Assembly: GCA_947626585.1 (NCBI GenBank)
Contig: CANQSU010000014.1
Location: 1-32,189, forward strand
Direction: 5' to 3'
Length of the DNA stretch: 32,189 bases
Source: an uncultured Oscillospiraceae bacterium
GTDB taxonomy: Bacteria > Bacillota > Clostridia > Oscillospirales > Oscillospiraceae
Made by a program: the position numbers and the translations under genes. The notes below the pieces were generated by a model that saw only the letters and a list, made by a program, of their open reading frames with translations, did not search any database and was not told the origin of the DNA. How positions within the stretch are numbered: the first letter of the stretch is position 1; each line of letters begins with the position of its first letter. Below, piece after piece: positions 4,416 through 30,396 of this stretch.

Positions 4416-4614
4416 CCATGTCACCCCACTCGTCGCACTCGTGTTCGTCGAAGCGGCCGTCCTCGCAGCAATCTTTGCAGACCACGGCGCCGCAATCCGG
4501 GCAGACCGCCACCTGGTCGTCGGGTCCGATTGGCTTCCCGCAGACGTCGCAGGCCAGGCCGTCCGTGCCGAGGGTGCGGTATTCAAAAGCGTTGTCTTCG
4601 TGTTTGTAAGGCAT
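4399..4614 (-). CDS. Small double zinc-ribbon protein, 71 aa
   Basis: Three cysteine pairs, CDVC (22/25), CPDC (38/41) and CKDC (46/49), followed by another Cys and an HEC, make a compact two-site zinc fold similar to double zinc ribbons. The C-terminal end is strongly acidic. GGAGGA precedes the start at a good distance. Such proteins often mediate protein-protein or RNA contacts; nothing here identifies the partner. Confidence 0.75.
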   Translation of the reverse strand: MPYKHEDNAFEYRTLGTDGLACDVCGKPIGPDDQVAVCPDCGAVVCKDCCEDGRFDEHECDEWGDMDEGSD

Positions 4615-4622
4615 AGTTCCTC

Positions 4623-5474
4623 CTATTCTTCACCGTCGTATTCCGTCTTGACCAGCTCGTTGAGCCAGTCCGGGCCGGTGATGGTTCCCCGGGTGAACCG
4701 GGGCATGTCGTCGTAGGAATAATCACAGAGCCGCATCAGCGACCCGTCGCTGGAGACGTAAAGCTGTTCGATGCGGCAGTTTCCGTCCCGTTCGATCTCG
4801 ATGTCGATGCCTGCATAGTCCTCGTTGAACTCGGACCCGCGGACCGGGTCGTGTTCCACGGACTCCGCCAGGCCGTTCCAGTAGGCCCGGCCCTCGCCCA
4901 TGACCCAGCGGGTGTCGCCGGGCTTGTCATAGATGTGGGCCTTGTCCGGGACGAGGTTGGGCAGCGTCAGGAGCCTGGCCAGGCTCTCCGGGCTGATGTC
5001 GTCATGGAACATGTCCAGGCTTACGGCCACGTAACAGCCGTATTCACGTTCAATATATTCGGCCTCGGCGCGGTCCTTCAGGATGCGCTTCAGGACTTCC
5101 GAGCCGGACCAGGACGTGTTTTTGAAATACTGTTCCGTCGTCCACCGGTTCCACGCGTGGCAGGCTTTGATGAACTGGTCAGATACTTCCTTCCCGTTGG
5201 TCGCGAGCCAGACCGTCTCGACGCTGACGCCGTATTTTCTGCAGAGCCGCAGGGCGTCCATCATGGCGCCGGGGTTCAGGGATGGCTCGCCGCCGGTAAA
5301 CGTGACCTCCCTGACATGGCCCAGGCGCGTGAACAGGCTTTTCAGCGTGTCGAACTGGATGTTCATGTCCTGGGCGTCGCCGCGCAGGCAGTGGTCACAG
5401 CACATGTTGCAGCGGCGGGTGATCTCGATGACCAGGTTGTCAATACTCGCCTTTGGTTTCGTCGTACGGGTCAT
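4623..5474 (-). CDS. Radical SAM enzyme, 283 aa
   Basis: The N-terminus holds the [4Fe-4S] cluster motif CX3CX2C as Cys22, Cys26 and Cys29 (ITRRCNMCCDHCLRG), followed by VTFTGGEPSLNP (GGEP at 61-64), the S-adenosylmethionine-binding element. Both are diagnostic of radical SAM proteins. The rest is a partial TIM-barrel-like region and an acidic tail without the extra cysteines of a SPASM domain, apart from a lone LCDYSYDD. The substrate cannot be assigned. GGGAGGA precedes the start, which lies inside the 3' end of the upstream small membrane gene. The stop is TAG. Confidence 0.85.
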   Translation of the reverse strand: MTRTTKPKASIDNLVIEITRRCNMCCDHCLRGDAQDMNIQFDTLKSLFTRLGHVREVTFTGGEPSLNPGAMMDALRLCRKYGVSVETVWLATNGKEVSDQFIKACHAWNRWTTEQYFKNTSWSGSEVLKRILKDRAEAEYIEREYGCYVAVSLDMFHDDISPESLARLLTLPNLVPDKAHIYDKPGDTRWVMGEGRAYWNGLAESVEHDPVRGSEFNEDYAGIDIEIERDGNCRIEQLYVSSDGSLMRLCDYSYDDMPRFTRGTITGPDWLNELVKTEYDGEE

Positions 5475-5634
5475 AATCTGCGTCCTCCCAGATCGGTTTG
5501 AAAAAGTCGTCGTATTCCTCGGGGTGCCTCTCGTAATTTTTCCACTCGTCCGTCTTCGTCACGGCGATGGTGAAAATGGTGAAAGCCACGGGGACCATCA
5601 GGATCCTGATCAGATATACGATGGATGTCAGCAT
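5440..5634 (-). CDS. Small single-pass membrane protein, 64 aa
   Basis: Residues ~2-25 form a hydrophobic segment (SIVYLIRILMVPVAFTIFTI) followed by an acidic cytoplasmic-type tail with WKNYERHPEEYDDFF. I chose the start MLTSIVYL at 5634, one base after the upstream stop (TGACATG), because GGAAGGGAG lies at the right distance. It overlaps the radical SAM gene by 35 bases. The role is unknown; small phage membrane proteins often act on the envelope or on superinfection, but that is not shown here. Confidence 0.7.
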   Translation of the reverse strand: MLTSIVYLIRILMVPVAFTIFTIAVTKTDEWKNYERHPEEYDDFFKPIWEDADYDPYDETKGEY

Positions 5635-5635
5635 G

Positions 5636-6367
5636 TCACTTGCTCCCTTCCTCCGGATAACCGGGTGTTTCCGGAACTGCGTCAAAGCAGGTCCAGTAGG
5701 TGTTCATTTCCCTTAATAATCTTTTGCCGCCGTCCGTGAAGATCACGATGCGGCGGTCCGTGGCGGCGTCCTCGGACAGGTCCTTGATCTCCTGCACGAC
5801 GCGCCACCGGCCGTTCCGGTTGTCGACCCAGAACTGTAGGGCCTTCTCGACGAACCAGACAGGCGTCCCGGGCACCAGGTCCGCGGGATGCAGTTCTTTT
5901 GCCATGCCGACGTATTCCTCGCGGAGCAGGCCGAAACCTTTTTTGGCCCAGTATTCGTCCGGTATGATGTCCGGCGTCAGGGACTTGAAGATCTCCGGGA
6001 TCGAACTGGTGTCTGACCGCAGGAGCTTCCGGTGGGGCATGGTCCCAATGTACCAGCCAAGGGTCACCGTCGTGTCGTCTGAATTTATGTTCGGGTGGGA
6101 TGACAGGATCGCGATGGGGTTTCCGTTGGGGTCGTAGGAGACGAATACGTGTTCCAGGCTTCCGTCGGCCGAATACTGCGACGCGTGCAGCGTGATGACG
6201 CCCTTTTCCGGGACGAGCAGGGGCTTGAGCCGGTTTATCTCAACGATGTACCGATCGGTGTCCGTGAGGCAGCCGTGAGGTTTACGTGATGGGATCGGGC
6301 TGGACATGACGACCCGGAGTGGGCCGTCGTCCAGTTTTGCGATCACTCCAGGCCTAAGTGTGTCCAT
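5636..6367 (-). CDS. Hypothetical protein, 243 aa
   Basis: An unrecognised soluble protein of mixed alpha/beta character. Residues ~65-105 alternate strands (HVFVSYDPNGNPIAIL) and the C-terminal third carries RRIVIFTDGGKRLLREMN followed by a Trp/Cys (YWTCFD). No known catalytic motif is present. AGGAGC precedes the start, which overlaps the end of the DUF5983 gene by 14 bases. Confidence 0.72.
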   Translation of the reverse strand: MDTLRPGVIAKLDDGPLRVVMSSPIPSRKPHGCLTDTDRYIVEINRLKPLLVPEKGVITLHASQYSADGSLEHVFVSYDPNGNPIAILSSHPNINSDDTTVTLGWYIGTMPHRKLLRSDTSSIPEIFKSLTPDIIPDEYWAKKGFGLLREEYVGMAKELHPADLVPGTPVWFVEKALQFWVDNRNGRWRVVQEIKDLSEDAATDRRIVIFTDGGKRLLREMNTYWTCFDAVPETPGYPEEGSK

Positions 6368-11452: not shown

Positions 11453-12391
11453 TTAACCTTCTTTCATTGTGTCATAAAATCCGCGCAGGATCTCCCACCC
11501 GAGCGGGATGATCGTGTCCATGGCCATGGCGAAGTCTTTTTCCGGCTTGCCGGCGGCGGCGCGCAGGGTCCGGGCCGTGTCCTCATTGTAGAGCATGGCG
11601 TTGCGGTATTCCCCGACCTTGGAGCGGAATTTCGCGGCGCGGTCCTCGTCCATGTCGGAACAGGTTTCGATCAGCGCTTTCCGGTAGGCTTTCGCCAGGA
11701 CCGGCTGCAGGTATTTGTCCAGGACGTTGTCCCAGGTGTCGTTGTCGGTCATGGCCGGGGTCATGTCGAGCTCGAACTTGTCGGCCAGCATGTCCAGCAC
11801 GCCGCCCCATACCTCGCCCTCGCGGGCGCCGGGGATGTCGTCCGGTTCCAGGCCGTAGTCGTCGAGCCAGTTCACGATGTGTTCCCCGGCGTCCTGGGTG
11901 AAAAAGGCGTGGCGGACGTCGCGGAAGATGTGATCCAAAAATTCCGTGGGCAGGGCGTTTTCCAGTTCGTCCTGGCGGATGTAATACCCGAAGGGCGCCT
12001 CGCCGCTGCTGGAAATTTTGATTGGCAGGGCGACGCTGTCCTCATGGTGATAGGCCATCAGGAAGCCGTCCGGGACGGCCGCATGGTTTTCTAATCGTTC
12101 GGCCATGACACAGATGCTGTCCGCCGTCACGTCGGTGTTTGGGACGGCGCTGGTCGGCTCATGGGCGATCATCTTCCAGACGCCTTTTGTCAGCAGGTTT
12201 TTCCGCCAGCCTTTCTTCTCCGGAAGGCCGAGGAATCTCGGCTGGAAGTTTTTGGTTTCGCAGGCCAGCATGACTTTTCGGAAATCCTCGTCGGATATCA
12301 GGCCGTGGATGACGGCGTCGTTCATGGTGATGAAGCCGTCCTGGTTGTAGGAATAAAAGATCTTGGTATTATTCAGTTTCGGCTGGCTCAT
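11453..12391 (-). CDS. Hypothetical protein, 312 aa
   Basis: An acidic, largely helical protein that I do not recognise. It has HIFRDVRHAFFTQDAGEHIV in the middle, a Trp-containing acidic stretch, and ends in helices (RTLRAAAGKPEKDFAMAMD). I chose MSQPKLNNTK at 12391 because AAAGGAGG lies 8 bases upstream; this overlaps the end of the preceding gene by 23 bases. It is one of the longer unknown genes of the window and is a candidate for structural modelling. Confidence 0.72.
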   Translation of the reverse strand: MSQPKLNNTKIFYSYNQDGFITMNDAVIHGLISDEDFRKVMLACETKNFQPRFLGLPEKKGWRKNLLTKGVWKMIAHEPTSAVPNTDVTADSICVMAERLENHAAVPDGFLMAYHHEDSVALPIKISSSGEAPFGYYIRQDELENALPTEFLDHIFRDVRHAFFTQDAGEHIVNWLDDYGLEPDDIPGAREGEVWGGVLDMLADKFELDMTPAMTDNDTWDNVLDKYLQPVLAKAYRKALIETCSDMDEDRAAKFRSKVGEYRNAMLYNEDTARTLRAAAGKPEKDFAMAMDTIIPLGWEILRGFYDTMKEG

Positions 12392-13172
12392 TTTCGCCGC
12401 CTCCTTTCGTATCGATGTCTGGGCCTGTCCCCACGTCCAACGGGAAGTGCAGGACGCTGATTGTGTCCCGCAGGAATTTTTGGATCTGGTTTCTGGTCGT
12501 TTTGCCGATGCCGGGGATCCGGGCCCACATTTCATCGGTCATGACGTAGGCCGTGCCGAGGGAGATCCGATGGTTCTTCATGACCGTCACGGCGCGTTTC
12601 GGCAGATAGTAGCGTTTCCCGGTCCGGACCATGTAATAGTCCGAGGCGAGGTCTTCGTAGGGCTTGGGGCCGAAAGGCTGCCAGACGACCGGCGACGCGG
12701 CCCGGAGCGGGGCGATCAGGTCAGCGGCCGTTTTTATAAATACGCTGGCGCCGTGGGTGACGTCGTATATGATATTGTCCGGGGCGGCGTTGGCGTAGTC
12801 CCAGGTCGGCACCCAGTGGAGCGGCATCTGGTGTCTCGGCTGCGTGATGCCGATGGGATTGGCGACGTGGGCAAATATCGTGACGGTGCATTTGCTGAAA
12901 ACACCGTTTTCGTCCAGGTACCTGTAGCAAATGTGGCCGCAGTTGACCGGCGCGAGTTCCCCGGGGCCCTTTTTCCCGAGCTTGTCGAGGTTTTCAGATC
13001 CGACAAGGTCGTACAGGATCCCGCGGGCCGTGATGGTGCCGTCGCCGTACGATATGATCTTTTCCGGCGGCGCGAGCATGGTCGTCCCGTCCGTCTTTAC
13101 TTCCTCCTGGAGCAGGATCTGGCGGCCCGACGGGCTGAAGATGAGTACCAGTGCGGTCTTGACGTCAGGCAT
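12369..13172 (-). CDS. Degenerate Nudix-like protein with C-terminal helix-hairpin-helix, 267 aa
   Basis: The opening KTALVLIFSPSGRQILLQEE resembles the first two strands of a Nudix fold, and ARGILYDLVGSENL sits where a Nudix box helix would, but the catalytic REXXEE residues are absent. Near residue 220 MWARIPGIGKTTRNQIQKFL is a good helix-hairpin-helix, a DNA- or RNA-backbone contact. GGAGGGA precedes the start. The Nudix reading is an inference from pattern; the helix-hairpin-helix is clearer. If correct it would bind rather than hydrolyse a nucleotide-like ligand. Confidence 0.6.
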   Translation of the reverse strand: MPDVKTALVLIFSPSGRQILLQEEVKTDGTTMLAPPEKIISYGDGTITARGILYDLVGSENLDKLGKKGPGELAPVNCGHICYRYLDENGVFSKCTVTIFAHVANPIGITQPRHQMPLHWVPTWDYANAAPDNIIYDVTHGASVFIKTAADLIAPLRAASPVVWQPFGPKPYEDLASDYYMVRTGKRYYLPKRAVTVMKNHRISLGTAYVMTDEMWARIPGIGKTTRNQIQKFLRDTISVLHFPLDVGTGPDIDTKGGGENEPAETE

Positions 13173-13230: not shown

Positions 13231-14487
13231 TCACAGGATGCGGTACTGGCCCTGGCTGTAGACGAGGGTGTCGTCCTTCTTGAACATGGCGTGGTTCTCG
13301 GTCTTGTCCAGCACCGGGTTGGCCAGGACGGAGGCCGTGCCGGGCTTTATAAGCCCGATGCCTTCGGCCTGCCGGACGAACTCCTCGCCGGCGGCGTCGT
13401 CCTCGACTTCCATGATGTGTCCGCCGTCGATCGTGAGCGGCATCAGGTCTCCGTCCGCGTCCGTGACGAAGATGTAGCGGCGGCCGGAGTCGTCCGCGAC
13501 GCGTCTGGGCAGGGCCAGGTCCTTCTCATACAAACGGCCGTCGGAGTGCATGCGGAGCAGCGGGGCGGCCATGAGCATGACGCGGCGCATGTCGGGGTGC
13601 GGGGCGCCGGTGGTGCCGTAGGTCCTTAGGTTGATGATGTGCTCCCATTCGGCTTCCACGGCCGTGAGGATGATGTCGGCCTTCACTGACTGGGGCAGGA
13701 CGGCGCGGGCTTCCTGGGCGACGGCACCGTGCGCCAGCATGGACATGTAGAGGCGTTCGGCCTGGCGGCAGCCCTCCTTCCAGTCGGCATAGAAGGCGGC
13801 CTTCTTGTACAGGTCGTCCTCCACCCAGAAGGGCTCAACGACGGTGATCTCCGTGCCGAACTTGCCCTTGGAGTAATTGCAGTACCGGGTCGACTCCTGG
13901 GCGAAGCTGGCGGGACGGTGACGGACCAGCTCATGGGTCACGCCGCGGTCCACATGGAACAGGACCGTGTGCGGCAGGCATTCACGGAGCGCGTCCCAGT
14001 CGTTGTCAAACTTGCATTTGTCGATGAACTCCGTGCGGGACAGGACCTGGAAGTCCTGGTCGATGGCAACCATAGCACCATCGTAGCTGCAGCGGCCGAA
14101 GATCTCGGGGTACAGGCCGCGCATGGCTTCACACAGGCGGCGCCAAATATGATTGTGCGGGCAGGAGCTGTTTTCGAGCATGTCGTACATGGCGCGGAGG
14201 CTGGCGCTGAACTTATGGCCGGAAACATGGATGTAACGGGTGTCCTTCGGGTCCATGGTGTCCAGCATGTCAAGGAACCGTCCCGTGACGGTCATGTAGA
14301 TGAAGGCGTGCTCCAACATGGCCCCGTGGCCCTTCTGGGCGAGGTCTGTGATGAACTTCCGGGCGGATTCCGGCGTGATGCGGTCCTCGGATTTATAACA
14401 GGTGCGCCCGACCTTCTCAATGAACTGGAGCGGGCCCTGGTACTGCGCCGGGTCAAGATACTCGGCGCTGGGTTTGATGATCTGCAT
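13231..14487 (-). CDS. thyX: Flavin-dependent thymidylate synthase ThyX, long form
   Basis: ThyX makes dTMP from dUMP using FAD, NADPH and methylene-tetrahydrofolate. The signature RHRxxSx4SxR is present as RHRPASFAQESTR (residues 189-201), with LEH upstream (residue 58-60) and PHPDMRRVM later. Typical ThyX is 220-250 aa with the signature near residue 80. This one has 418 aa: about 100 extra residues lie between LEH and the signature, and about 100 residues follow the normal end (YIFVTDADGDLMPLTIDGGH). It probably helps DNA synthesis during infection. GAGGA precedes the start. Confidence 0.92.
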   Translation of the reverse strand: MQIIKPSAEYLDPAQYQGPLQFIEKVGRTCYKSEDRITPESARKFITDLAQKGHGAMLEHAFIYMTVTGRFLDMLDTMDPKDTRYIHVSGHKFSASLRAMYDMLENSSCPHNHIWRRLCEAMRGLYPEIFGRCSYDGAMVAIDQDFQVLSRTEFIDKCKFDNDWDALRECLPHTVLFHVDRGVTHELVRHRPASFAQESTRYCNYSKGKFGTEITVVEPFWVEDDLYKKAAFYADWKEGCRQAERLYMSMLAHGAVAQEARAVLPQSVKADIILTAVEAEWEHIINLRTYGTTGAPHPDMRRVMLMAAPLLRMHSDGRLYEKDLALPRRVADDSGRRYIFVTDADGDLMPLTIDGGHIMEVEDDAAGEEFVRQAEGIGLIKPGTASVLANPVLDKTENHAMFKKDDTLVYSQGQYRIL

Positions 14488-15488: not shown

Positions 15489-15719
15489 TCACTTTCTTTT
15501 CCGGACGACCTTGGGGAACGGGGTCTTATCGGAAATGGTGAAGGTGTCGTACCCGGACGCGGACTGGACCACGAAGCTGATTTTATTCTCTTCGGCATGA
15601 AGGTCCACGACCGCCCATTCCGTAATATCAGGGCACTTGATGTTGATGTGTTCCTCCAATTGGTCCAGGGCGTCCTTGGCGCGGGTGACGCAGTTGTCTC
15701 TTGAGTGGTTGATGGACAT
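15489..15719 (-). CDS. Hypothetical protein, 76 aa
   Basis: Small unrecognised protein. A helix (CVTRAKDALDQLEEHINI) is followed by strands (WAVVDLHAEENKISFVVQSA) and a basic end (KVVRKRK). Its ATG overlaps the upstream stop by one base (TAATG) with GGAGGA at normal distance, showing tight translational coupling. Confidence 0.7.
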   Translation of the reverse strand: MSINHSRDNCVTRAKDALDQLEEHINIKCPDITEWAVVDLHAEENKISFVVQSASGYDTFTISDKTPFPKVVRKRK

Positions 15720-16411
15720 TACAGATCCTCCTCCGTGTTTTTCAGGTAGGGTTCAGGGTTTTGGTTCTGGGACAGGAACGAGGCAATGACGGGGCACTGC
15801 TCGTAATAGCAGTCCACGCGGGTCACGCCCTCTTTTGGCGTCTGCCAGCAGGGCACGGGCTCGTCATCATCATGAATTGTGACGCCGCCCGGGACGCAGG
15901 AATGGTAGCCCCTGGACCATAACGCGTCCACGACGGCGTGCAGGACGGCGTCGATGTCTTCGGGCATGAAGCCGACCAGGGCCGGTTTCCGGGACGGGTC
16001 CACCAGGTCCCGGCACAGGTCCAGGACGTCCGACCGCAGGACGGAGGCCCGGACGTCGCAGAACGAGGCAAACATGGCCTGCGGCACCGGGTCCGGGTTC
16101 GGGACGAATTTCAGGTTCTGGTTCTTCGTGATGATCTCCGCCTCGGTCTTGCGGATGACGGGGAGGCCGTCGAACAGCATGTCAATCGCTTTGATATACA
16201 GGCCGTCCAGGGACGTCAGCGGCCTGTCCCAGCCGGGGGTGAACTCCGGGGTGGTGTCGGACAGGGCGCAGACGTTTTCGGCGGCGAATTGCAGGTATAA
16301 CGGGTCGGATTCCAGGGCGGCGGCCCGGGACCTGGACAGCTTGGATTTCTGGACGAGGTCCCGGATCTTTTCCCGGATCTTCGTGTCTTCCAGTGAAAAC
16401 GTTGCCTTCAT
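15719..16411 (-). CDS. Hypothetical protein, 230 aa
   Basis: Not recognised. It begins with a basic helical region (KIREKIRDLVQKSKLSRSRA) and continues with mixed helices. Three Cys and several Asp lie in the C-terminal third (YHSCVPGGVTIHDDDEPVPC). The start has GGAGGA upstream. No membrane segment or catalytic motif is visible. Confidence 0.7.
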   Translation of the reverse strand: MKATFSLEDTKIREKIRDLVQKSKLSRSRAAALESDPLYLQFAAENVCALSDTTPEFTPGWDRPLTSLDGLYIKAIDMLFDGLPVIRKTEAEIITKNQNLKFVPNPDPVPQAMFASFCDVRASVLRSDVLDLCRDLVDPSRKPALVGFMPEDIDAVLHAVVDALWSRGYHSCVPGGVTIHDDDEPVPCWQTPKEGVTRVDCYYEQCPVIASFLSQNQNPEPYLKNTEEDL

Positions 16412-21214: not shown

Positions 21215-21568
21215 TCACTTGTAGATATGTTCGGCGATAAAGCCGGCGAGCGTGGCCGCGAAGGCTTTTTTCTGGGCCGGGCCCATGCCGGCGTTTTCCA
21301 TGGCTTCCGGGATGCCCTTCTCGAACAGGCAGCAGAGCCAGTGGTGGTTCCGGTCCTCGGTGATGTTGGCCAGGATTTCCAGGTAGTCCATCCCGGTCCA
21401 GTCCGCACGCTGGACTTCCATCAGGCCTTTGAAGTCGTCCGGGCCGTATTCTTCCAGCGGCCCGTAGACATACTGGTGGCGGCCGATGCTGTCGGCCATG
21501 ACGGTCCAGTTTTTTACGAACCCGTCCAGGATCTCGGCTTTGCGTTTGTTTTCGGGGTCTGTGATCAT
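21215..21568 (-). CDS. Hypothetical protein, 117 aa
   Basis: A helical small protein (DPENKRKAEILDGFVKNWTV; MDYLEILANITEDRNHHWLC) ending in a helix that includes AAFAATLAGF-like hydrophobics. The ATG at 21568 overlaps the stop of the 446 aa gene as ATGA, with GGAGAGGA upstream, so the two are coupled. Not recognised. As the immediate partner of a possible Acr-like gene it deserves attention. Confidence 0.7.
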   Translation of the reverse strand: MITDPENKRKAEILDGFVKNWTVMADSIGRHQYVYGPLEEYGPDDFKGLMEVQRADWTGMDYLEILANITEDRNHHWLCCLFEKGIPEAMENAGMGPAQKKAFAATLAGFIAEHIYK

Positions 21569-22905
21569 GTTTCCTCTCCTTTGATTTCGACCGTGCGGTG
21601 CGCCGGGGCCGCCGCGACGTCCTTCAGGGCCTGGCGGGTCTTGACCTGCGGTCCGATCCAGACGCGCTTGCCGGTCTTTTTGTAATAGCGCCAGTGCCCG
21701 GCCTGGGTCCATTTTGGCGTGCGGTACAGGGCGGCGCGACGCTTGGTCATGGCCTGTGGTAAGTTCTCGGATTTTACTGTGATCGGGCCTACGGCGCGGA
21801 CGGTGCGTTCGGGGTACTGTACCGGAGTGTTGGCTGATTTTTCCTCGTCGGTGCGGGGTACCGTTTCCGGTTTTTTCGCCGCGGGCTTGGCCTTTTTGCG
21901 GTTTGCGTGGATCAGGGCGTTTGCCAGGGAAATGAGCCAGAAGAACTGCATGCCGAGGGTTGAGAGCGGCGTGCAGCCGTTCTGTTCCATATGCCGTTCT
22001 GCCCGTTCCGCGACGTCGATGGCTTCGTTCTGCCAGATTTCTCGGTCTGTGTCGGTCCAGCCGTTGAATTTTGCCGTGTCCAGCTTTTTGTAGATCTGGG
22101 ACGGTAGCATTTTGTCTTCATCGTTGGTGTCCAGGGCGAAGCGGTTCCCGCCGGAGAAGATGAACCCGACCTCGCCACACATGCCCGGAGTCCAGCCGTC
22201 CCACTCCATATGGTCGTGCAGCCACACCGTGACAAGCTGCCGCTCCGTGCTCACGCCCGTCACGCGAAAGTAAATATAGCGGTTGTCGTTGGCCCGGACG
22301 ACACCCTCGTTGAAGCAGGGGATCGCCGCGGCGAAGGGGCCGACGAGGTTTTCGTAGTCCGTGTCGGCCTGGTCGTAGGCGGACTCCGTCGGGACGGAAT
22401 GGCCGTCTCCCTTGTCTTTATAGGCGCCGCGCATGTCCAGCACGTCAAAATCGTGTTCCAGCTGCCAGCGGGTGTACCCGTATCCGGATTCCAGCAGGGC
22501 CCTGTTGTAGTCCCGAGCCAGCTCGTCCCGCCGCACGGTGACGGGTATGTAGTCGTCCGGGTTGCCGTGTTGTCCTGGGAAGCGGACAGCCGTGAATTGG
22601 CCTTGCAGGCTGTTGTCCCGCATGTACGCTTCGGCAACTTGCCCGATGTTGACTGGCGCCGGGTTTGTTCCAGGCCGGAGCAGCAGGGCGTTCGGGGTCT
22701 GTGTCGGCTTGTGGTTCGGGCCTCCGATCAGGTTGCGCTGGACCGTGACCTGCGGGAAGCCGCGCATGCCGGACTTGTACACTAGCATGGACTTTACTGG
22801 GTTTTCAGACGGGATTTCTCTCTGGGTGTTATCCTCTAGGAATTGCGCTGCCGGGTCGCGGGCCCGTTTTTCCTGCCGCACGCGCGGCCGTTTCTTCTTT
22901 GCCAT
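21565..22905 (-). CDS. 446 aa protein, paralogue of the 26870-28057 gene; possible remote AcrVA2-like architecture
   Basis: A basic N-terminal tail (MAKKKRPRVRQEKRAR) is followed by a central fold with AAAIPCFNEGVVRANDNRYI, VTVWLHDHMEWDGWTP and an aromatic helix (LGMQFFWLISLANALIHANR), then a Lys/Pro-rich linker and a final YRTPKWTQAGHWRYYKKTGK ahead of RVWIGP. The same order of elements and the terminal GHWxxY...G...R-W-x-P motif remind me of AcrVA2, an anti-Cas12a protein ending in RRGHWHGYWQG. This is inference from motif order, not a search. The start has AGGACAGG upstream and the gene is coupled to the next by ATGA. Confidence 0.7.
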   Translation of the reverse strand: MAKKKRPRVRQEKRARDPAAQFLEDNTQREIPSENPVKSMLVYKSGMRGFPQVTVQRNLIGGPNHKPTQTPNALLLRPGTNPAPVNIGQVAEAYMRDNSLQGQFTAVRFPGQHGNPDDYIPVTVRRDELARDYNRALLESGYGYTRWQLEHDFDVLDMRGAYKDKGDGHSVPTESAYDQADTDYENLVGPFAAAIPCFNEGVVRANDNRYIYFRVTGVSTERQLVTVWLHDHMEWDGWTPGMCGEVGFIFSGGNRFALDTNDEDKMLPSQIYKKLDTAKFNGWTDTDREIWQNEAIDVAERAERHMEQNGCTPLSTLGMQFFWLISLANALIHANRKKAKPAAKKPETVPRTDEEKSANTPVQYPERTVRAVGPITVKSENLPQAMTKRRAALYRTPKWTQAGHWRYYKKTGKRVWIGPQVKTRQALKDVAAAPAHRTVEIKGEET

Positions 22906-23437: not shown

Positions 23438-24022
23438 TTACAGTGTGATTTCCAGGAAGTACATGATCGCCAGCTGGAGCCTGGCATTGATATCTGATTC
23501 CCAGTTGAGCAACTGGTTCGCCTCGGACCGGCTGAGCCAACGGGCCTCGATGGGCTCCAACGGGTTATCCTGCACAGGCTTCGGGTTTTTGTACTTCGTC
23601 GCGTCGGCGTAGGCGAAGATTTGGGTGATCCTGGTCGAGCCGACGGCGTCGTTCGCGTAGGCCGCCGGGAGCTCCCGGTCAACGGCGGATATCTTCACGC
23701 CCGTTTCCTCCAGGAGTTCCCGTTCCATCGTCTGGCGCGGCGTTTCGCCCGGTTCGATGATCCCCTCGGGGAGCCGCCACACCCACCGGTTCACGGCGGG
23801 ACGGAATTCCTTTAAGGCCAGGAGGCGGGGACGGCCCGGGGCCGGGTCGATGACGCAGGCGCTGACGCCGTCTGGCTTGTCGGCCCAGGCTTTGCCGATG
23901 CGGGCCGCCGTCTCGTAAATCTTGTGGCTGCCGTCCGGCAGCTCGTAGTCCATGGCGTAGAGCCCCAGGTGGCGGCCCTGGGCCATGATCGAAACGTTTT
24001 TGAGTTCCATGGGTTCCCGCAT
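23438..24022 (-). CDS. Nudix hydrolase, ADP-ribose pyrophosphatase-like, 194 aa
   Basis: A complete Nudix box GX5EX7REUXEEXGU lies at residues 87-109 (GIIEPGETPRQTMERELLEE then TGV). The preceding strand (SACVIDPAPGRPRLLALKEF) and the VWRLPEG lead-in match ADP-ribose pyrophosphatase-type enzymes, which split nucleoside diphosphates linked to X. Length fits. Phage Nudix enzymes can act on NAD-derived or mRNA-cap-like substrates, so ADP-ribose, NADH or NAD-capped RNA are all possible. GGAGGA precedes the start. Confidence 0.88.
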   Translation of the reverse strand: MREPMELKNVSIMAQGRHLGLYAMDYELPDGSHKIYETAARIGKAWADKPDGVSACVIDPAPGRPRLLALKEFRPAVNRWVWRLPEGIIEPGETPRQTMERELLEETGVKISAVDRELPAAYANDAVGSTRITQIFAYADATKYKNPKPVQDNPLEPIEARWLSRSEANQLLNWESDINARLQLAIMYFLEITL

Positions 24023-24038: not shown

Positions 24039-24626
24039 TCAGATGTTTTTCCGGATGTACTGTTTCAGGTTGCAAAGGCAGCGGGGCAGGTCGTTGTTCT
24101 GGAACCGGACACGGATGCCCGCTTCGCGGATGTTTTGTTCTGAGAAATCGTCACAGTCCGCCAGGAAGCGCCGGCACATCTCCCGGTACTTCGGGTGTTC
24201 CTGGCCGTTCTCCCGGTCCAGCGCCCGTTGCAGGCGTTCCCGGTCGTCCACTTCGAGATAGAGCGGTACGACGCAGGCGGGACCGTAGTAAGCGCTCATT
24301 GATCGAAATGATTCCAGCGTTCCGATCCCGAGGTAGTTCTTGGATTTCAGGTCCAGTCCGTCGTAATGTGCCGTGAAGTAGTGCCAGACACCCTGGGCCG
24401 TGTGGTACGTCCGAAGCTCGATGAGCCGGCCCTCTGATTTTATTTTTGCCAGCCCGGCCTCATCGGTGAAGAAATATTCGGCGCCGTTTGTCTCGCCGCT
24501 CCGGATCGGGCGGGTCGTGTACATCACGAGTGGCTGCAGGCCCAGGGCGGCGTCGTTCAGCAGGGATTTGTAGACCGTGTCCTTTCCGGACGCGCTTTTC
24601 CCCATGAGATAAAATATTTTTCCCAT
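24039..24626 (-). CDS. Guanylate kinase-like nucleotide kinase, 195 aa
   Basis: The N-terminus IFYLMGKSASGKDTVYKSLL holds a P-loop (GKSASGKDT, residues 9-17), and VMYTTRPIRSGETNGAEYFF matches the GMP-binding segment TTRxxRxGE..G.xYxF of guanylate kinases. Length agrees with the ~190-200 aa family. It would phosphorylate GMP or dGMP for the phage nucleotide pool. The lid and C-terminal parts are more divergent. The ATG at 24626 lies one base after the upstream stop, with only a weak Shine-Dalgarno, so coupling is likely. Confidence 0.85.
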   Translation of the reverse strand: MGKIFYLMGKSASGKDTVYKSLLNDAALGLQPLVMYTTRPIRSGETNGAEYFFTDEAGLAKIKSEGRLIELRTYHTAQGVWHYFTAHYDGLDLKSKNYLGIGTLESFRSMSAYYGPACVVPLYLEVDDRERLQRALDRENGQEHPKYREMCRRFLADCDDFSEQNIREAGIRVRFQNNDLPRCLCNLKQYIRKNI

Positions 24627-24627
24627 A

Positions 24628-25629
24628 TCAGTCGGACAGGTACTCGGCCGCGATCTTGTCCAACCCGCGGTCGGCGTAGTAGTCATACAGGAATTCCCGC
24701 TGGGCTTTCGTGATGCGGCGGGATTCGTCCCGGGTGACTTCGGCAATGCCATGGTGCGTTGAGTGGAGCAGGATCCAGCCTTTCTTGGCCAACTCGTCGC
24801 CGGCGGTCATGTCCACGCGCATGTCCATGACGGCGGAGTGGCTTTCCCACTTGTCGTCAGGGAGGTTGAATTGTTCCGGGTGCGCCAGCATGTAGTCGCC
24901 GGCCCAGCCCTGGTGTTCGCCCCATTCCACCGGATGGAACTCGCCGGTCGGGGACAGCCAGCCGTAGTCGTCGCCTTTGTTGACCCGCTGTGCCGTGATG
25001 TAGTCGTCCAGCAGCGCCGAGGCGGGGGCGTTCACGCGGTCCAGGACTGCTTTATTTTTGGCTGCCACACGGGCGGCGACGTCGTCGTCACTGACGCGGC
25101 CGTCCATCATGTCCACGGATCGCAACGCGGACCAAAGGGCCGGCTCGTCGCCGGGCGGCAGCTTGGTGCTGTAATGGTCCGGGAAGAGCCAGGGCTGGTT
25201 GAGTTCGTCCACGGGGTCTGACGGGTCGTAGACGTCCTCGTGCCAGTGCTGGTTCAGGTCGGCGATCTGGTAGTCCTTCAGGTCTTCGCCGATGAAGCCG
25301 ATCTTCTGTTCATAGGCGTAGACCTGGCGTTTCAGCTTTTCGTTTTCCGTCCTGAGCCCGTCGAATACGGCCAGGATGCCGGGCGTCTTCTCCGTCGGCT
25401 CGGTGTCGTAAACGCTGTAGTTCTCGTCCGGGTAGACGCCGCGGATCTCTTTCCGGCCCTCCAGGATGTCCACACAGAGCTTGATGTGCTCCCCCTCGGA
25501 GATTTCATCCGTGGTGGTGCAGGACATGAGCAGGTCCATGGCTTTTTTCAGGTCCTTGGACTGGTACAGGTGCTCGCGGGCCATGTTCGTGATGAACTGG
25601 CCTTCGATGCGGAATGTCATGTTCGGCAT
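24628..25629 (-). CDS. Conserved hypothetical protein, 333 aa
   Basis: The C-terminal half, with DYGWLSPTGEFHPVEWGEHQ, GWAGDYMLAH, KKGWILLHSTHHGIAEVTRD and ITKAQREFLYDYYADRG, fits an uncharacterised family I recall from Firmicutes phages and conjugative elements. Residues ~85-115 may be a short coiled coil (LRTENEKLKRQVYAYEQKIG). GGAG precedes the start. No enzyme motif is clear. It lies directly before the kinase gene. Confidence 0.78.
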   Translation of the reverse strand: MPNMTFRIEGQFITNMAREHLYQSKDLKKAMDLLMSCTTTDEISEGEHIKLCVDILEGRKEIRGVYPDENYSVYDTEPTEKTPGILAVFDGLRTENEKLKRQVYAYEQKIGFIGEDLKDYQIADLNQHWHEDVYDPSDPVDELNQPWLFPDHYSTKLPPGDEPALWSALRSVDMMDGRVSDDDVAARVAAKNKAVLDRVNAPASALLDDYITAQRVNKGDDYGWLSPTGEFHPVEWGEHQGWAGDYMLAHPEQFNLPDDKWESHSAVMDMRVDMTAGDELAKKGWILLHSTHHGIAEVTRDESRRITKAQREFLYDYYADRGLDKIAAEYLSD

Positions 25630-25646: not shown

Positions 25647-25677
25647 AAGAAAAGGGCCGCGGTCAAGGCCGCAGCCC
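25647..25677 (-). terminator. Rho-independent terminator with stop codon in the loop
   Basis: On the minus strand GGGCTGCGG pairs with CCGCGGCCC (one G-U pair), followed by TTTTCTT. The six-base loop carries the TGA stop of the upstream 92 aa gene. This is an economical terminator separating the sigma4/alpha-CTD block from the kinase block. Confidence 0.8.
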
Positions 25678-25941
25678 ATTTAAGCCGTGCGCCGTCTCGA
25701 AGTCCGCGAGTTCCTGGCAGGCCTTGTCGAAGGCGGCGTCCGTTTCCGGGTTTTTGCAGACGCCGACGGCATGCCCGGCGCTCTCGGCTTTTCGGGTGAG
25801 CGTTTTCCATTGTTCGTATGCGTATACGGAAATGTGCAGGTGCTGCCCGCATTCGTGCTGGATCACGGCGTCCCGGTCTGTCGATTGGAACGTGCAGTGG
25901 GCGGGGTCACGGTTGCACAGGTACATGGTCACTTGTCTCAT
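25663..25941 (-). CDS. Small zinc-finger-like protein, 92 aa
   Basis: Cys9, Cys16, His29, Cys31 and His34 (YLCNRDPAHCTF, IQHECGQH) suggest a C2H2-like zinc site. The second half is helical (KACQELADFETAHG). GGAGGA precedes the start, which lies 35 bases inside the preceding sigma4/alpha-CTD gene, and its stop is inside a terminator loop. Overlap with a transcription-type gene hints at a shared regulatory role, but that is inference. Confidence 0.68.
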   Translation of the reverse strand: MRQVTMYLCNRDPAHCTFQSTDRDAVIQHECGQHLHISVYAYEQWKTLTRKAESAGHAVGVCKNPETDAAFDKACQELADFETAHGLNGLRP

Positions 25942-26497
25942 CTTGGTCCTCCTGGATGTGATTTAACGCGACGGCCTTGAGCTTCCCGGCCGTTTCTGGG
26001 CCGATGTTCTGGACGTCCGTGAGCCTCTGGGCGTTGAACACGTCGCGGCAGGTGTAATAGCCGGCCTCGGCGATGTCGGCGATGCGGCGCCAGGTGACGA
26101 CGGCCCGGAGCGGGGCGAGGTTTTTGATCGCGTCGCAGGCCGGGTCGGACGGCAGGGCCGTGCCGAATATGAGCCCGTACAGCGGGTTCCGGGACAGCAC
26201 GTATAGTGCGCAGCTGTCCAGTTCAGACGCCTGGGACGGCGTCAGGGCGAGCTTTTCCGCCATGGTCTTGTAGGTCATCTGCTCGGCATACCGGAGCAGG
26301 ACAGCCTGGCGGAGCGGCTCCGGGAGCTTTTTGACGGCCGCCCATACGTTGTTTGCCAGGCGTTCGGCCTCGGCATCCGTGAGCCGCTGCAGGTTCAATC
26401 CATTGGGCAGCTTGCGGTTGGATTTCCTGGCCACGTTGTAGGCCAGGGTCCGCTGCCAGAATTCGGCGCCTTCGAGGCGCGTCTTGTTCTTCGGCAT
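25907..26497 (-). CDS. Sigma-region-4-like HTH fused to RNA polymerase alpha-CTD-like domain, 196 aa
   Basis: Residues ~50-103 (VWAAVKKLPEPLRQAVLLRY, then TYKTMAEKLALTPSQASELD) match the helix-turn-helix of sigma-70 region 4, which reads promoter -35 boxes. Residues ~125-178 (RAVVTWRRIADIAEAGYYTC, RDVFNAQRLTDVQNIGPETA) match the alpha-subunit C-terminal domain, with the helix-hairpin-helix LTDVQNIGPETAGKL corresponding to its L..IRNIGKKTLEEI. No region 2 is present, so it is unlikely to be a full sigma factor. It could redirect host RNA polymerase or act as an activator. The ATG at 26497 is chosen with AAGAAGG upstream. Confidence 0.78.
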   Translation of the reverse strand: MPKNKTRLEGAEFWQRTLAYNVARKSNRKLPNGLNLQRLTDAEAERLANNVWAAVKKLPEPLRQAVLLRYAEQMTYKTMAEKLALTPSQASELDSCALYVLSRNPLYGLIFGTALPSDPACDAIKNLAPLRAVVTWRRIADIAEAGYYTCRDVFNAQRLTDVQNIGPETAGKLKAVALNHIQEDQDETSDHVPVQP

Positions 26498-26499
26498 GG

Positions 26500-26877
26500 T
26501 CAGCCTTCTTTCTTTGTGTTGGCGGCGTCCACCAGGACTTTCGTGACATGGTTCAGGACCAGGTTCCAGTATCCGGCGTGCTCGCGGTCGTGCTGTTCGT
26601 TCTCGCCGGCGTACCACTGAAGCCACCTGGCCGTGAAGCGCTGCAGGTCGTACGGCGTGTCAATGGGCATCTCGGCGTCCTTGGGGCGGATGCTTATGCT
26701 GATCCCGTAATTATATTTCCCTTTGGAATACAGCGACGCCGTATGGACGGGTTCACGTGATTCCTTGTCAAAATTCGTGACGAGCTTGAGCGTGCCGTCC
26801 ATCAGCAGCAGTTCGGCCATTGTCACTGTGTTGTTGTCCTGGACCAGGTTGAAGCCGTGGAATACTTTTTCATCCAT
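26500..26877 (-). CDS. Hypothetical protein, 125 aa
   Basis: Unrecognised. Beta strands (MAELLLMDGTLKLVTNFDKE; YNYGISISIRPKDAEMP) come first, then an aromatic helix (LQRFTARWLQWYAGENEQ). A weak purine-rich AAAGAAAA precedes the start, which overlaps the upstream gene by 8 bases. It lies two bases before the sigma4/alpha-CTD gene. Confidence 0.7.
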   Translation of the reverse strand: MDEKVFHGFNLVQDNNTVTMAELLLMDGTLKLVTNFDKESREPVHTASLYSKGKYNYGISISIRPKDAEMPIDTPYDLQRFTARWLQWYAGENEQHDREHAGYWNLVLNHVTKVLVDAANTKKEG

Positions 26878-28057
26878 CGTTTTCTTTCTCCTTCGGGGTG
26901 TTATTGATGACGCGGATCACGGACTGGGGTATTTCTGAATTTTGGTTCAGAAGCGCCTTGCGGTGCCGGATCGACTCTTTGAACGGGACGAGCTTGCCGG
27001 ATTTGAGGCGGCGGACGCCGCCCCGGGCCTTCCAGACCGGCGTCTTGTAGTGCCGGACGGAGTCCTCTGTCGGGGCTTTTGGCGGCTTGACCGTCGTGAC
27101 GATGGCCATTCCGACCTGGCGCACCAGGCGTTTCGGAGGCTGTGCTGTCTGGGTTTCCGGCTGGTCCTTTTGTTCCATCTGGACGTGCGTCGGTTTCTTT
27201 TTCACCGGCTGGCGGATGGCTTTTGGCTTGTTCCGCTCCAGATAATAGTTCAATAATGCCATGTAGCGCAGGAACACGCGGGCCAGCTCCTGGATCCCGT
27301 TTGTGTTCCTGCTTGCGATGGCCTTTTCACAGTCGTCCGTGTATTTCAGCTGGAACGATTTCCAGATCTCGATGTCGTAGTCCGTCCAGTGCAGGTCTGT
27401 TTTGTAGTCCAGCAGGCGGTACATGCGGCCGAAGGTCATGGCGTCGTCCCCGGGTACGGACAGGCTGACGCTGCGATTGTCGGCCTGGAACGAGGCCGTG
27501 ACGGTGCCGGAGACGCCGGGGGACCACAGGCCGCTGAAGTTCGTGTAGTCCTGGACCCATACGGAGAAGTTTTTTCCCGTGACGTCGATGAATTTCATCT
27601 CGAACCGGATATACCGCGTTGTGTTGATACGGAGGACGCCGGCTGAGATGCATGGGATGGCACGCAGGAACATGTCGTCGATGTGGTTGACGTAGTCCAC
27701 GTATTCCGGGGCGTCAAAGGCGTCGGAGTCCGGGATGGCGGACGGGTCGCAGGGCTGTTTCGCGATGGCGGTCATGTCTATCATGTCCATGTTTTTTATC
27801 TGGGCACGTGAGCAGGCCAGGCCCTTGTCGATGAGGGCCAGGTTGTAGTCGTGGACCAGTTCCCGGTGGCGGGCCAGGCGCCTGCTGCTGTCGGATTGGC
27901 GCATGAGTTCGGCCATGCGTTTGTCCAGGATCGCCCCGGCGCCGGGATTGTCCACGGGAAGCCTTGCGGCAAATTCCGAGGACGCCACGCTGCGTGGTGT
28001 GATTGGCATGGCCTTTGGGGCCGGTTTTTGCGTTCGTTTCTTTTTCTTTTTGGACAT
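26870..28057 (-). CDS. 395 aa protein, paralogue of the 21565-22905 gene
   Basis: It has the same plan as the 446 aa protein: a Lys-rich start (MSKKKKKRTQKPAPKA), LRAIPCISAGVLRINTTRYI, a WTDYDIEIW segment, an aromatic helix (VFLRYMALLNYYLERNKPKA), a Lys/Pro-rich linker, and YKTPVWKARGGVRRLKSGKL ahead of VPFKESIRHRKAL. Shared elements run at the same spacing, so the two arose by duplication. The terminal GHW of the other copy is replaced by GVR here. AAGGGG precedes the start. A host-directed role such as anti-defence is possible but inferred. Confidence 0.72.
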   Translation of the reverse strand: MSKKKKKRTQKPAPKAMPITPRSVASSEFAARLPVDNPGAGAILDKRMAELMRQSDSSRRLARHRELVHDYNLALIDKGLACSRAQIKNMDMIDMTAIAKQPCDPSAIPDSDAFDAPEYVDYVNHIDDMFLRAIPCISAGVLRINTTRYIRFEMKFIDVTGKNFSVWVQDYTNFSGLWSPGVSGTVTASFQADNRSVSLSVPGDDAMTFGRMYRLLDYKTDLHWTDYDIEIWKSFQLKYTDDCEKAIASRNTNGIQELARVFLRYMALLNYYLERNKPKAIRQPVKKKPTHVQMEQKDQPETQTAQPPKRLVRQVGMAIVTTVKPPKAPTEDSVRHYKTPVWKARGGVRRLKSGKLVPFKESIRHRKALLNQNSEIPQSVIRVINNTPKEKENDG

Positions 28058-28082
28058 ACGTGTGTCGGCCCCTTTCTTTGAG

Positions 28083-28114
28083 AAAGCCCGGTAACGGCGT
28101 TGTTATCGGGCTTT
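28083..28114 (-). terminator. Terminator-like hairpin after the AT-rich gene
   Basis: AAAGCCCG and CGGGCTTT form an 8-bp stem around an inner TAAC/GTTA stem, followed on the minus strand by TTTCTC. The plus strand reads out into TTTT, so it may work both ways. It lies 14 bases after the stop of the promoter-driven 122 aa gene. Confidence 0.65.
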
Positions 28115-28128
28115 TCCGTGTGTTTGGT

Positions 28129-28497
28129 TCAATTTTCGATGAGTCCTGGGAACAGGTCTTTCAAGGCGGATTCTACGGTTTCCGCGCAGGACTTGATGTC
28201 CTGCAATTCTGAGACGTGTTTGTCGATGTCTTCGACTTCAATGGAACCGATTCGTGACAGGTGGATGACGGTGTGCAGGTGTTTGCCCTTGAGGTACATG
28301 TCCGGGGATGACAGTACAGGCCATTTTTCTTTTGTGATGAAAATCATGTCATCCGCTGAGAAATTTCTGTTTTTGAACGCACTGTCATAATCACCGTAAG
28401 ACCTGATTTTGATCCACCACGGCACGCCGTCTTTCTTGATTTCAACGGATGTGCCAATGGCTGTCTTTTTCAAATCTGATATAACCCATCCATCCAT
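28129..28497 (-). CDS. Small AT-richer gene with its own promoter and terminator, 122 aa
   Basis: Not recognised. The protein begins MDGWVISDLKKTAIGTSVEI and ends with an acidic, coiled-coil-like helix region (DIDKHVSELQDIKSCAETVE). It has visibly lower G+C than the genes on both sides. GAGGT lies before the start. With a consensus promoter upstream and a terminator-like hairpin downstream it forms a self-contained unit, the arrangement called a moron in phages, so it may be a recent acquisition with a host-directed role. Confidence 0.75.
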   Translation of the reverse strand: MDGWVISDLKKTAIGTSVEIKKDGVPWWIKIRSYGDYDSAFKNRNFSADDMIFITKEKWPVLSSPDMYLKGKHLHTVIHLSRIGSIEVEDIDKHVSELQDIKSCAETVESALKDLFPGLIEN

Positions 28498-28524: not shown

Positions 28525-28553
28525 ATTATACGATATTATGGTCCGTACGTCAA
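28525..28553 (-). promoter_or_regulatory. Consensus sigma-70/sigma-A promoter
   Basis: On the minus strand TTGACG (28553-28548) and TATAAT (28530-28525) are separated by 17 bases, the ideal spacing, with one mismatch to the -35 consensus. The start of the 122 aa gene follows about 28 bases downstream. It lies in the 63-base gap between the helicase stop and that gene. Confidence 0.88.
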
Positions 28554-28560
28554 TGCTTTT

Positions 28561-30336
28561 TCACTGGAACAGCATGTCCAACACCGTCTGGACCGAGACT
28601 CCGGTGGCCTCGCAGCAGATGGCCAGGGGCGCGTCCGTGGAGCCGTCGTTGCCGACACGCATCAAAGATTCGGCGTCCTGGAGCGGGTAGTCGATCTTCT
28701 TTTCGGCGATGATCCGGCGGAACTCGTCGTAGAAGTCGGCAATGTCCAGGCCGTAGATCTCGCTGAGTTCTTTGTCTGAGATGGGGTAGGGGATGTTGTG
28801 GTTCAGGCACCAGGAGCGGAAGTGCAGTTGCAGGGCATATTTGCAGCGGTGCGACATGGGTTCCGCCATGGCCTTTGCCAGGATTTCTCGGTACGTCGCC
28901 TCGTGGCCTGTGGCTTCCAGGCAGTCCGCCGTCACGCGGTTGATGTCCTTTTCTGGGGACGCCGCATTTGAATGATTGACGACCTGCCCGTCGTCGTTGA
29001 GGCCGAAGGTCGACGGGTTGCCGTTCTTGTCCACGATTTTGCCGGTGTCCGGGTCGACGTGGTACTGGGTCGGGATCTGGTCACCCGCGGGGTCGTTGTA
29101 CAGGATGCGGCCGGTTGTTTTATCTAAAACGTAATCGTCGTTCTTGGCATGGACGCGGTGCTGGCGGGTCGCCGGGGTCTTCACATAGAGCTCGTAGGCG
29201 GCCTTGCGGTGCAGGTTGTCCACGATGTCGAAGACGATGGCGGAACCGTCCGCGCCGGCGGAGAGGGCACGGCCCAGCTGCTGGGTGAAGATCGTGTTGG
29301 ACTGGGTGCCGCGGTACATCATGATGCCGGTCTGGTCCGCCACATGGTAGCCCAGGTTGAGCATGTCGATGCAGGCGATCAAATCGATGGTCTTGGGCCG
29401 GCGGGTGAGCATGGGCAGTTTGTCCGTGTTTTTCGACTCGCCGTCGGTGGAGCTGGAGATGCGCAGGGTCTTGATCGCGTGGTCCGGATAGGCCTCCCGG
29501 AACCAGTCTTCGACCTCGCCGATCTTCTGCTTCATGTGCAGCTTGTTGGCGAAAAACACGATGAACTTCATATAGTCCGTGTCCTTGGCGTATTTGTCGC
29601 ACACTTCCCGGATCACCTTGGGCATGGCGTAGATCTTGGCCAGCTCGATGACCTTGGCGTTGATGATGTCCGATACGCTGGGGTCCTTCAGGTCCTGGCC
29701 GGATTCTTTTGCCGCGTTTTCCAGGTCCCTGCGGAAATCGTAGGTCGCATAACAATAATGCGGTTTGGCGATCATGCCGGCGCCGATGGCATCGTGGAGC
29801 GTGTAGGCGTAGCACATGTGGTCGGCGTAGAAGTGGCTGCAGGGGTCGAAGTTATCCATGCGGGTCGGGGTGGCCGTTGCACCGATGAAGTCGCAGGTGA
29901 CTGGCAGGGTCGCGAACAGGAATTCCATGGCGGCCTTGGTGCGTGCGCCGCCGAGACGGTGCGCCTCGTCGCAGATGACCAGGTCGAAGTCCATGGCCTC
30001 GAAGTCGGACTTGGACAGCCGGACCAGTTTGGCGTAGGTCATCAGCGTACAGTTGGGGATGAAGCTGATCTGCCGGTAGGTGTCGACGGTCTCGGGGTCC
30101 AGAGGTTCGTCCTCATTGGGGTCGGGAAGGTCGTAGTACCGGTCCACGACGGTGTCGCGGACGACGGCAGACGGGTAGAGGTACAGGACCTTTTTGTAGT
30201 CCTTGATGAGTTCGGTGAGCAGCCAGGTCTTGCCGAAGCCGGTGGGCCGGATCACCATGCACTTGTGATACGTTTTGAGCAGGCGGCGGGCTTCCGCCAG
30301 AGTTTTGGCCTGCTCCTCAAATTTTGTCTCGGGCAT
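28561..30336 (-). CDS. SF2 DEAH-type helicase, 591 aa
   Basis: Motif I RPTGFGKT (Walker A, residues 31-37), motif II ICDEAH (123-126), motif III IGATATPTR (153-159), motif V CIDMLNLGYHV (~322-332) and motif VI QQLGRALS (352-358) identify an SF2 ATP-dependent helicase of the RAD25/type III restriction-like branch. After residue 400 comes a strand-rich insert with two copies of a DxxTG[RK]I element (DKTTGRILYND; DPDTGKIVDKNG) and a helical C-terminal region. It probably unwinds DNA or RNA during replication or recombination. GGAGGA precedes the start. Confidence 0.9.
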   Translation of the reverse strand: MPETKFEEQAKTLAEARRLLKTYHKCMVIRPTGFGKTWLLTELIKDYKKVLYLYPSAVVRDTVVDRYYDLPDPNEDEPLDPETVDTYRQISFIPNCTLMTYAKLVRLSKSDFEAMDFDLVICDEAHRLGGARTKAAMEFLFATLPVTCDFIGATATPTRMDNFDPCSHFYADHMCYAYTLHDAIGAGMIAKPHYCYATYDFRRDLENAAKESGQDLKDPSVSDIINAKVIELAKIYAMPKVIREVCDKYAKDTDYMKFIVFFANKLHMKQKIGEVEDWFREAYPDHAIKTLRISSSTDGESKNTDKLPMLTRRPKTIDLIACIDMLNLGYHVADQTGIMMYRGTQSNTIFTQQLGRALSAGADGSAIVFDIVDNLHRKAAYELYVKTPATRQHRVHAKNDDYVLDKTTGRILYNDPAGDQIPTQYHVDPDTGKIVDKNGNPSTFGLNDDGQVVNHSNAASPEKDINRVTADCLEATGHEATYREILAKAMAEPMSHRCKYALQLHFRSWCLNHNIPYPISDKELSEIYGLDIADFYDEFRRIIAEKKIDYPLQDAESLMRVGNDGSTDAPLAICCEATGVSVQTVLDMLFQ

Positions 30337-30369
30337 AAACGTTTCCTCCTATTGCAGTGACATGGAAAG

Positions 30370-30396
30370 CCCCCGGTCCGGGGATCGGGCCGGGGG
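30370..30396 (-). terminator. GC-rich hairpin between two genes
   Basis: CCCCCGG and CCGGGGG pair, with a further CCG/CGG inside. On the minus strand an A10 tract (complement of T10 at 30410-30419) precedes it and only TTT follows, so termination on the minus strand is probably weak or partial. On the plus strand the T10 run follows after 13 bases. Confidence 0.5.

Follow-up and report, generated by a model that had tools for sequence, protein, structure and literature searches.

The window, as we call the whole stretch of DNA that was analysed, comprises 32,189 nucleotides of contig CANQSU010000014.1 from an uncultured Oscillospiraceae bacterium (assembly GCA_947626585.1). It carries the gene of a 196-aa protein, P0001, whose reading frame opens with ATG; an AGAAGG motif, the probable ribosome-binding site, ends 6 bases ahead of this start (Table 1). 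A second copy of P0001 was found near the end of contig CANPXZ010000001.1 (183,961 bases; G060:C1, hereafter the 184-kb contig) from the uncultured Oscillospiraceae bacterium isolate Lapin-005__bin25. Both proteins are identical at 192 of 196 residues. The P0001 gene is thus real and, taken whole, is under purifying selection as judged from its codon differences, since 15 of the 19 are synonymous and four nonsynonymous (dN 0.009, dS 0.12). The last 86 residues are identical in both copies, with two silent changes, and this half alone is not informative on selection. Because the copies found are two and near-identical, deep conservation cannot be read from them.

P0001 belongs to a gene cluster on one strand that includes a helicase, a NUDIX gene and a guanylate-kinase-like gene. 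Nucleotide-metabolism genes for a ThyX-type thymidylate synthase, a NUDIX hydrolase and a guanylate-kinase-like protein were observed on the reverse strand of the window, at 13231-14487, 23438-24022 and 24039-24752. The same strand also encodes two paralogous proteins of 446 aa (21565-22905) and 395 aa (26870-28057), whose sequences share 31% identity across 309 columns (E 4e-45) and for which no Pfam match was obtained.

Table 1. Coordinates of P0001, its parts and neighbours in the window, and of related features on two further contigs.
Feature	Position	Strand	Basis
P0001, 196-aa sigma-4/hairpin protein, whole gene	25907..26497	-	Translation; second copy 98% identical; differences mostly silent
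Probable ribosome-binding site of P0001 (AGAAGG)	26504..26509	-	Sequence directly; same in second copy
Sigma-70 region 4 (aa 50-88 by Pfam)	26234..26350	-	Sigma70_r4_2 over cut-off; NCBIfam sigma70-ECF; 36 of 36 re-read ORFs
Possible helix-hairpin-helix domain (aa 131-185), alpha-CTD-like solely in predicted helix order	25943..26107	-	HHH_5 and Cdd1 below cut-off; hhalign with shuffles; low-confidence helices
125-aa neighbour, immediately upstream of P0001 (2-base gap)	26500..26877	-	No family match
92-aa neighbour, overlapping the P0001 3' end by 35 bases	25663..25941	-	Cys/His-rich start by eye; no family match
591-aa DEAD/ResIII helicase, common to the second element	28561..30336	-	Pfam ResIII 1.7e-11, DEAD 1.2e-9
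Giant RNA-polymerase-like protein, 2803 aa	G060:C1 56001-64412 (L036:6001-14412)	-	DFDGD motif of beta' plus beta-like motifs, single chain
Giant homologue, 2773 aa, contig C8 of the window's assembly (G000:C8)	L046:1498-9819	-	68% identical
210-aa sigma factor, region 2 and region-4-like end	G060:C1 173706-174338 (L042:8706-9338)	+	Sigma70_r2 over cut-off

A reading made from the sequence alone had seen a sigma-70 region 4 in the first half of P0001 and no region 2. Both points were borne out by profile searches. Pfam Sigma70_r4_2 matched residues 50-88 at E 8e-8, with 32.2 bits against a cut-off of 25.7; Sigma70_r4 reached 17.8 bits, under its cut-off of 24.1. The NCBIfam sigma70-ECF model (TIGR02937) matched residues 40-92 at 3.6e-7 with the region-4 end of the profile, its 30.0 bits lying below the whole-protein cut-off of 42.9, and a sigma factor family of PHROGs matched at 3.4e-5. 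Sigma70_r2 was absent among the seven Pfam families reported for P0001 at E up to 10, so that P0001 is not a complete sigma factor, which would include region 2. We also built two local profiles from proteins of other genomes, a sigma-70-type one (13 proteins) and an ECF-type one (12 proteins), which recovered P0001 among 2140 ORFs at 1.4e-10 and 1.7e-15, respectively. At E up to 1, the sigma-70-type profile reported three of the 2140 ORFs, namely both P0001 copies and a 210-aa protein of the 184-kb contig, and the ECF-type profile reported the same three proteins plus two more at 0.11 and 0.28. As the proteins in both profiles had been found via P0001, its recovery is partly circular, and it is the curated Pfam match that provides independent evidence. 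On the evidence of these profiles, the first half of P0001 is a sigma-70 region 4, without detectable region 2.

We then looked at how far relatives of P0001 extend along the protein. Among plasmid records, 115 matches were obtained at E up to 1. Eighteen of the best 20 came from Rhizobium and covered residues 14-91 (best 7e-3), and 17 of these 18 are annotated as sigma factor. The remaining two of the best 20, from Shinella (0.6) and Methylobacterium (0.3), extend beyond the first half of P0001 into the second; the latter match begins outside the annotated gene and was taken as chance. Phage records yielded a single match (E 0.03, residues 51-88). No relative was found in viral_contigs, and one was found in genome_contigs, among 30 candidate stretches. 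In genomes, P0001 had matches in 16 of 60 relatives at E<=0.01 and in 18 of 394 members of the order at E<=5e-4, its own genome counted. This gave 38 other genome matches, 36 of them with a locus, one place being counted twice (L012, L091). When these were re-read as open ORFs, all 36 sigma-like loci matched P0001 within residues 6-108 only, and none of them encoded another protein with the P0001 architecture. Longer matches in genomes G546 and G496 (to residue 145) and G037 (to residue 128) span a stop codon and were ruled out. In the searches made, full-length relatives of P0001 were found only in this type of element. Scans of viral_contigs with the element's giant protein, helicase and sigma factor and with the 395-aa neighbour, which depend on short exact peptide matches and so overlook distant relatives, detected no related elements.

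The sequence-only reading had taken P0001 for a phage protein, which the gene content of the 184-kb contig does not support. The end of this contig overlaps the window, with 92.6% identity over 25693-28472 and 94% over 28550-30396, the helicase region, and the contig runs on past the window. It encodes a MobL relaxase (3.1e-36) and a 1473-aa VirD4-type coupling protein (T4SS-DNA_transf 2.8e-20, TraG-D_C 2.9e-13), the pair of proteins by which we define a conjugative element. Moreover, none of the ten long unassigned proteins scanned from it matched PHROGs at 0.01. The contig further encodes a type IA topoisomerase, a 1896-aa T-Q ester-bond protein, two AAA proteins (one FtsH-like, one other), a RecJ-like protein under its model's cut-off, one tRNA-Pro and a 2094-aa protein with a Phage_lysozyme2 domain, a domain that also occurs in conjugation lytic enzymes. 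An exact terminal overlap of the contig was absent at the five lengths tested. Several gene groups were observed in addition: two MgsA-type AAA proteins encoded nearly adjacent to each other (L042:2168-3604 and 4385-5644, forward strand), two DUF3232 proteins (L042:7541-8104 and 15615-16160, forward strand), and the type I-C CRISPR genes Cas8c/Csd1 and Cas3, both over their cut-offs (L022:11152-15742, reverse strand). The scanned ORFs of the window itself included no transfer genes. We read the window as conjugative because it overlaps with the 184-kb contig and because another contig of the same assembly, C8, can be aligned with the stretch of the 184-kb contig that encodes the polymerase and the coupling protein. 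The carrier of P0001 thus looks, from its genes, like a large conjugative element of Oscillospiraceae.

Directly downstream of the coupling-protein gene, on the same strand, the 184-kb contig encodes the 2803-aa giant protein. Its beta' domain lies above the Pfam cut-off (6.2e-7 for the whole protein, 2.3e-9 for the piece), the DFDGD motif is intact at position 2154 and is present in both giant copies, and hhalign aligned the beta' region with the MAG's own beta'. A PDB profile search gave 0.02 as its best value, and eight of the 12 reported matches were to RNA polymerase chains and fell on the beta' motif. Upstream of DFDGD, we observed the beta-like motifs GYNMEDG (1444; pattern GYNxEDG) and GNKG (1485). 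On this beta side, Rpb2_6 matched at 0.027, below cut-off, and hhalign with the MAG's own beta gave no alignment. The assignment of the beta half is thus less certain, as it relies on motifs. NCBIfam at 0.001 returned nothing for the giant protein, and neither the 50,697 phage records nor the 72,556 plasmid records gave a tblastn match at 1e-5. In three overlapping sets of genomes, the giant protein was found in one of 400 of the family (its own), in three of 394 of the order and in one of 398 of the phylum (its own); those of the order were its own genome and two with matches at 5e-5, to ORFs of 1185 and 1218 aa that are taken to be host beta'. The 210-aa protein recovered by the local profiles is a sigma factor: it passed the sigma70 superfamily cut-off, and its best models, SigK and SigE, scored under their respective cut-offs.

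These genes bear on what P0001 works with. It had been proposed that P0001 redirects the host polymerase; this is now one of two options, because the related element has a polymerase-like protein and a sigma factor of its own. P0001 might instead serve the element's single-chain RNA polymerase, either as a subunit or as a promoter factor, in step with the element's sigma factor. The over-cut-off beta' domain and beta-like motifs of the giant protein would fit this, as would the position of the sigma factor gene, about 9 kb from the P0001 copy, and the occurrence of the giant homologue on another contig of the window's assembly. However, the sole link between P0001 and the giant protein, a putative polymerase with a putative flap, is the shared element; the sigma-4 similarity of P0001 is to ordinary bacterial sigma factors; and none of the three contigs examined from the window's assembly (C14, C8 and C99) was found to carry the element's sigma factor. 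We therefore consider a role of P0001 with the element's polymerase to be rather unlikely. We likewise regard as rather unlikely the wider proposal of a bacterial conjugative element that has its own transcription apparatus, in which the giant protein would be a single-chain RNA polymerase working with the region 2 and 4 sigma factor and with P0001 as a region-4/hairpin promoter factor. Phages inject virion polymerases, and, purely by inference from gene order, the giant polymerase could be sent into the recipient along with the DNA.

The second half of P0001 had been read as an RNA polymerase alpha-CTD with a helix-hairpin-helix. The hairpin was found to be plausible, with signals below every curated cut-off, and the alpha-CTD identity was not confirmed. 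HHH_5 matched at E 0.083 with the whole protein and at 0.032 with residues 101-196 (13.8 and 15.1 bits, cut-off 27), and Cdd1 at 0.02 and 0.042 (15.5 and 14.5 bits, cut-off 25.5). Pfam detected no RNA_pol_A_CTD (PF03118), either in the whole protein or in the second half, and the PF03118 matches in the window's assembly do not include P0001. Two local alpha-CTD profiles were also used. The first consisted of the C-terminal domains of 18 RpoA from related genomes, the other 12 of the 30 RpoA loci being left out because of another reading frame or the motif filter; the widened profile contained this RpoA set plus five alpha-CTD-like segments of other proteins, chosen by eye. Neither profile singled out P0001 within the set of 2140 ORFs: the RpoA-only profile placed it 283rd of 965 reported ORFs at E 320, and the widened profile 87th of 993 at E 150. 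With hhalign, P0001 aligned to the RpoA-only profile at E 0.078, and six of 200 shuffles were equally good; the widened profile gave E 0.008 with none of 200 shuffles equally good, a result that hinges on the segments picked by eye. The alignment places residues 137-184 on the alpha-CTD, in the register that the sequence-only reading had implied. We take it to hint that the second half holds a hairpin domain, short of proof for an alpha-CTD.

Structure prediction yielded models of low confidence that did not decide the fold. AlphaFold modelled the whole of P0001, from a two-row alignment, at pLDDT 39.6, and residues 112-186 alone at pLDDT 58.0. The low-confidence helices of the latter model span residues 119-125, 131-145, 150-155 and 167-185. 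The E. coli alpha-CTD has helices near 264-273, 278-283 and 297-309, and the order of the last three P0001 helices is presumably that of the alpha-CTD helices. A structure search with this 75-aa model returned nothing meaningful, as expected at pLDDT 58. The sole matches of the second half in a phmmer search of the PDB were two designed toroid proteins (5.7e-4 and 0.0056), which were discounted because their summed score comes from repeats. Elsewhere in the window, a weak helix-hairpin-helix signal was seen in a 267-aa protein (12369-13172, reverse strand; HHH_8 0.024, below cut-off).

The proposal that P0001 is a true sigma-4 plus alpha-CTD mimic, which redirects host polymerase by copying two of its DNA contacts, has to be weighed against these results. 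The helix register and the hhalign alignment would fit the alpha-CTD layout, and alpha-CTD modules do occur outside RpoA in related genomes, as 154- and 130-aa proteins over the PF03118 cut-off and as larger multi-copy ones. On the other hand, PF03118 went undetected in P0001 and the profile ranks were low. The DNA-contact residues that are critical in the E. coli alpha-CTD are R265, N268, G296, K298 and S299. Assuming the weak hhalign register, R137 and G166 of P0001 would keep R265 and G296, and T169 would be similar to S299, but A140 and E168 would stand in place of N268 and K298, so that two contact positions would not be kept. We consider a true alpha-CTD mimic unlikely. The second half is thus best described as a possible helix-hairpin-helix domain of unproven alpha-CTD identity. 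Finally, since Q-like and ArpU-like phage regulators use a sigma-4-type helix-turn-helix and Q-like anti-terminators were among the weak PHROGs matches over the same stretch of P0001 (0.14 and 0.17), P0001 might be an ordinary DNA-binding regulator without polymerase contact, but its best matches are genuine sigma factors and we regard this as very unlikely.

We favour, with a probability of about one half, the reading of P0001 as a transcription factor of a conjugative element that combines sigma-4 docking with a DNA contact by the hairpin and serves as a co-factor or split-sigma partner, likely of the host polymerase. The sigma-4 part would dock where sigma region 4 does, on the beta flap of RNA polymerase and/or on -35 DNA, and the C-terminal hairpin domain would add a second, largely non-specific DNA contact upstream. 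Because it is without region 2, P0001 would need a partner, either the host holoenzyme or the element's sigma factor and polymerase, and is not expected to open promoters alone. Of the two settings, the host polymerase would be likelier than the element's single-chain polymerase with the element's sigma factor; we lean to the former because the sigma-4 domain of P0001 resembles those of ordinary bacterial sigma factors. We infer the hairpin fold, the binding of DNA and of polymerase, and the choice of polymerase.

Among known proteins, ECF-type sigma factors share with P0001 a similar region 4, as seen from the Pfam match over cut-off and the match to the region-4 end of TIGR02937; in contrast to them, P0001 is without region 2 and has an extra C-terminal part of about 90 aa. 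Proteins with an alpha-CTD (PF03118) resemble it in predicted helix order, in a weak hhalign register, but P0001 has neither a PF03118 match nor a profile ranking. The best-described functional parallel among those considered is gp33 of phage T4. This protein takes the place of region 4 on the beta flap, can be regarded as a split sigma together with gp55, recognizes no DNA sequence and tethers the sliding clamp (PMC2988020). By analogy, P0001 could fill a region-4 role without region 2; unlike gp33, it has a recognisable sigma-4 helix-turn-helix and a possible DNA-binding hairpin, and the parallel is one of function, not a claim of homology. SigO-RsoA of Bacillus subtilis is also a split sigma, with the activity divided between two proteins, and is likened to P0001 by this idea only, not by sequence. 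P0001 is thus apparently a variant of known region-4-type regulators, and the larger surprise is the element's apparent polymerase of its own. If this reading is true, a factor that has region 4 alone and carries a further DNA-binding domain would offer a compact means of steering promoter choice.

For the giant protein, the closest comparison is with single-chain polymerases of cellular fold, YonO and the RNAP of crAss-like phages, described from phages (PMC5467207, PMC7481178). Like these, it would unite beta' and beta features in a single chain, by its beta' domain and its beta-like motifs; unlike these, it rides an element with a relaxase and a coupling protein. Plasmid-borne polymerases are described from yeast (PMC6211774), and a study of proteins of phages and conjugative elements places N4-like virion polymerases only in phages or prophages (PMC5512222). 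Searches of the open-access literature turned up neither a bacterial conjugative element that carries an RNA polymerase nor a sigma-4/alpha-CTD fusion. The setting of the element matters more than P0001; the giant protein had no relative in the plasmid records searched. Should the element indeed transcribe its own genes, it would provide a test case for how transcription systems gain independence from the host.
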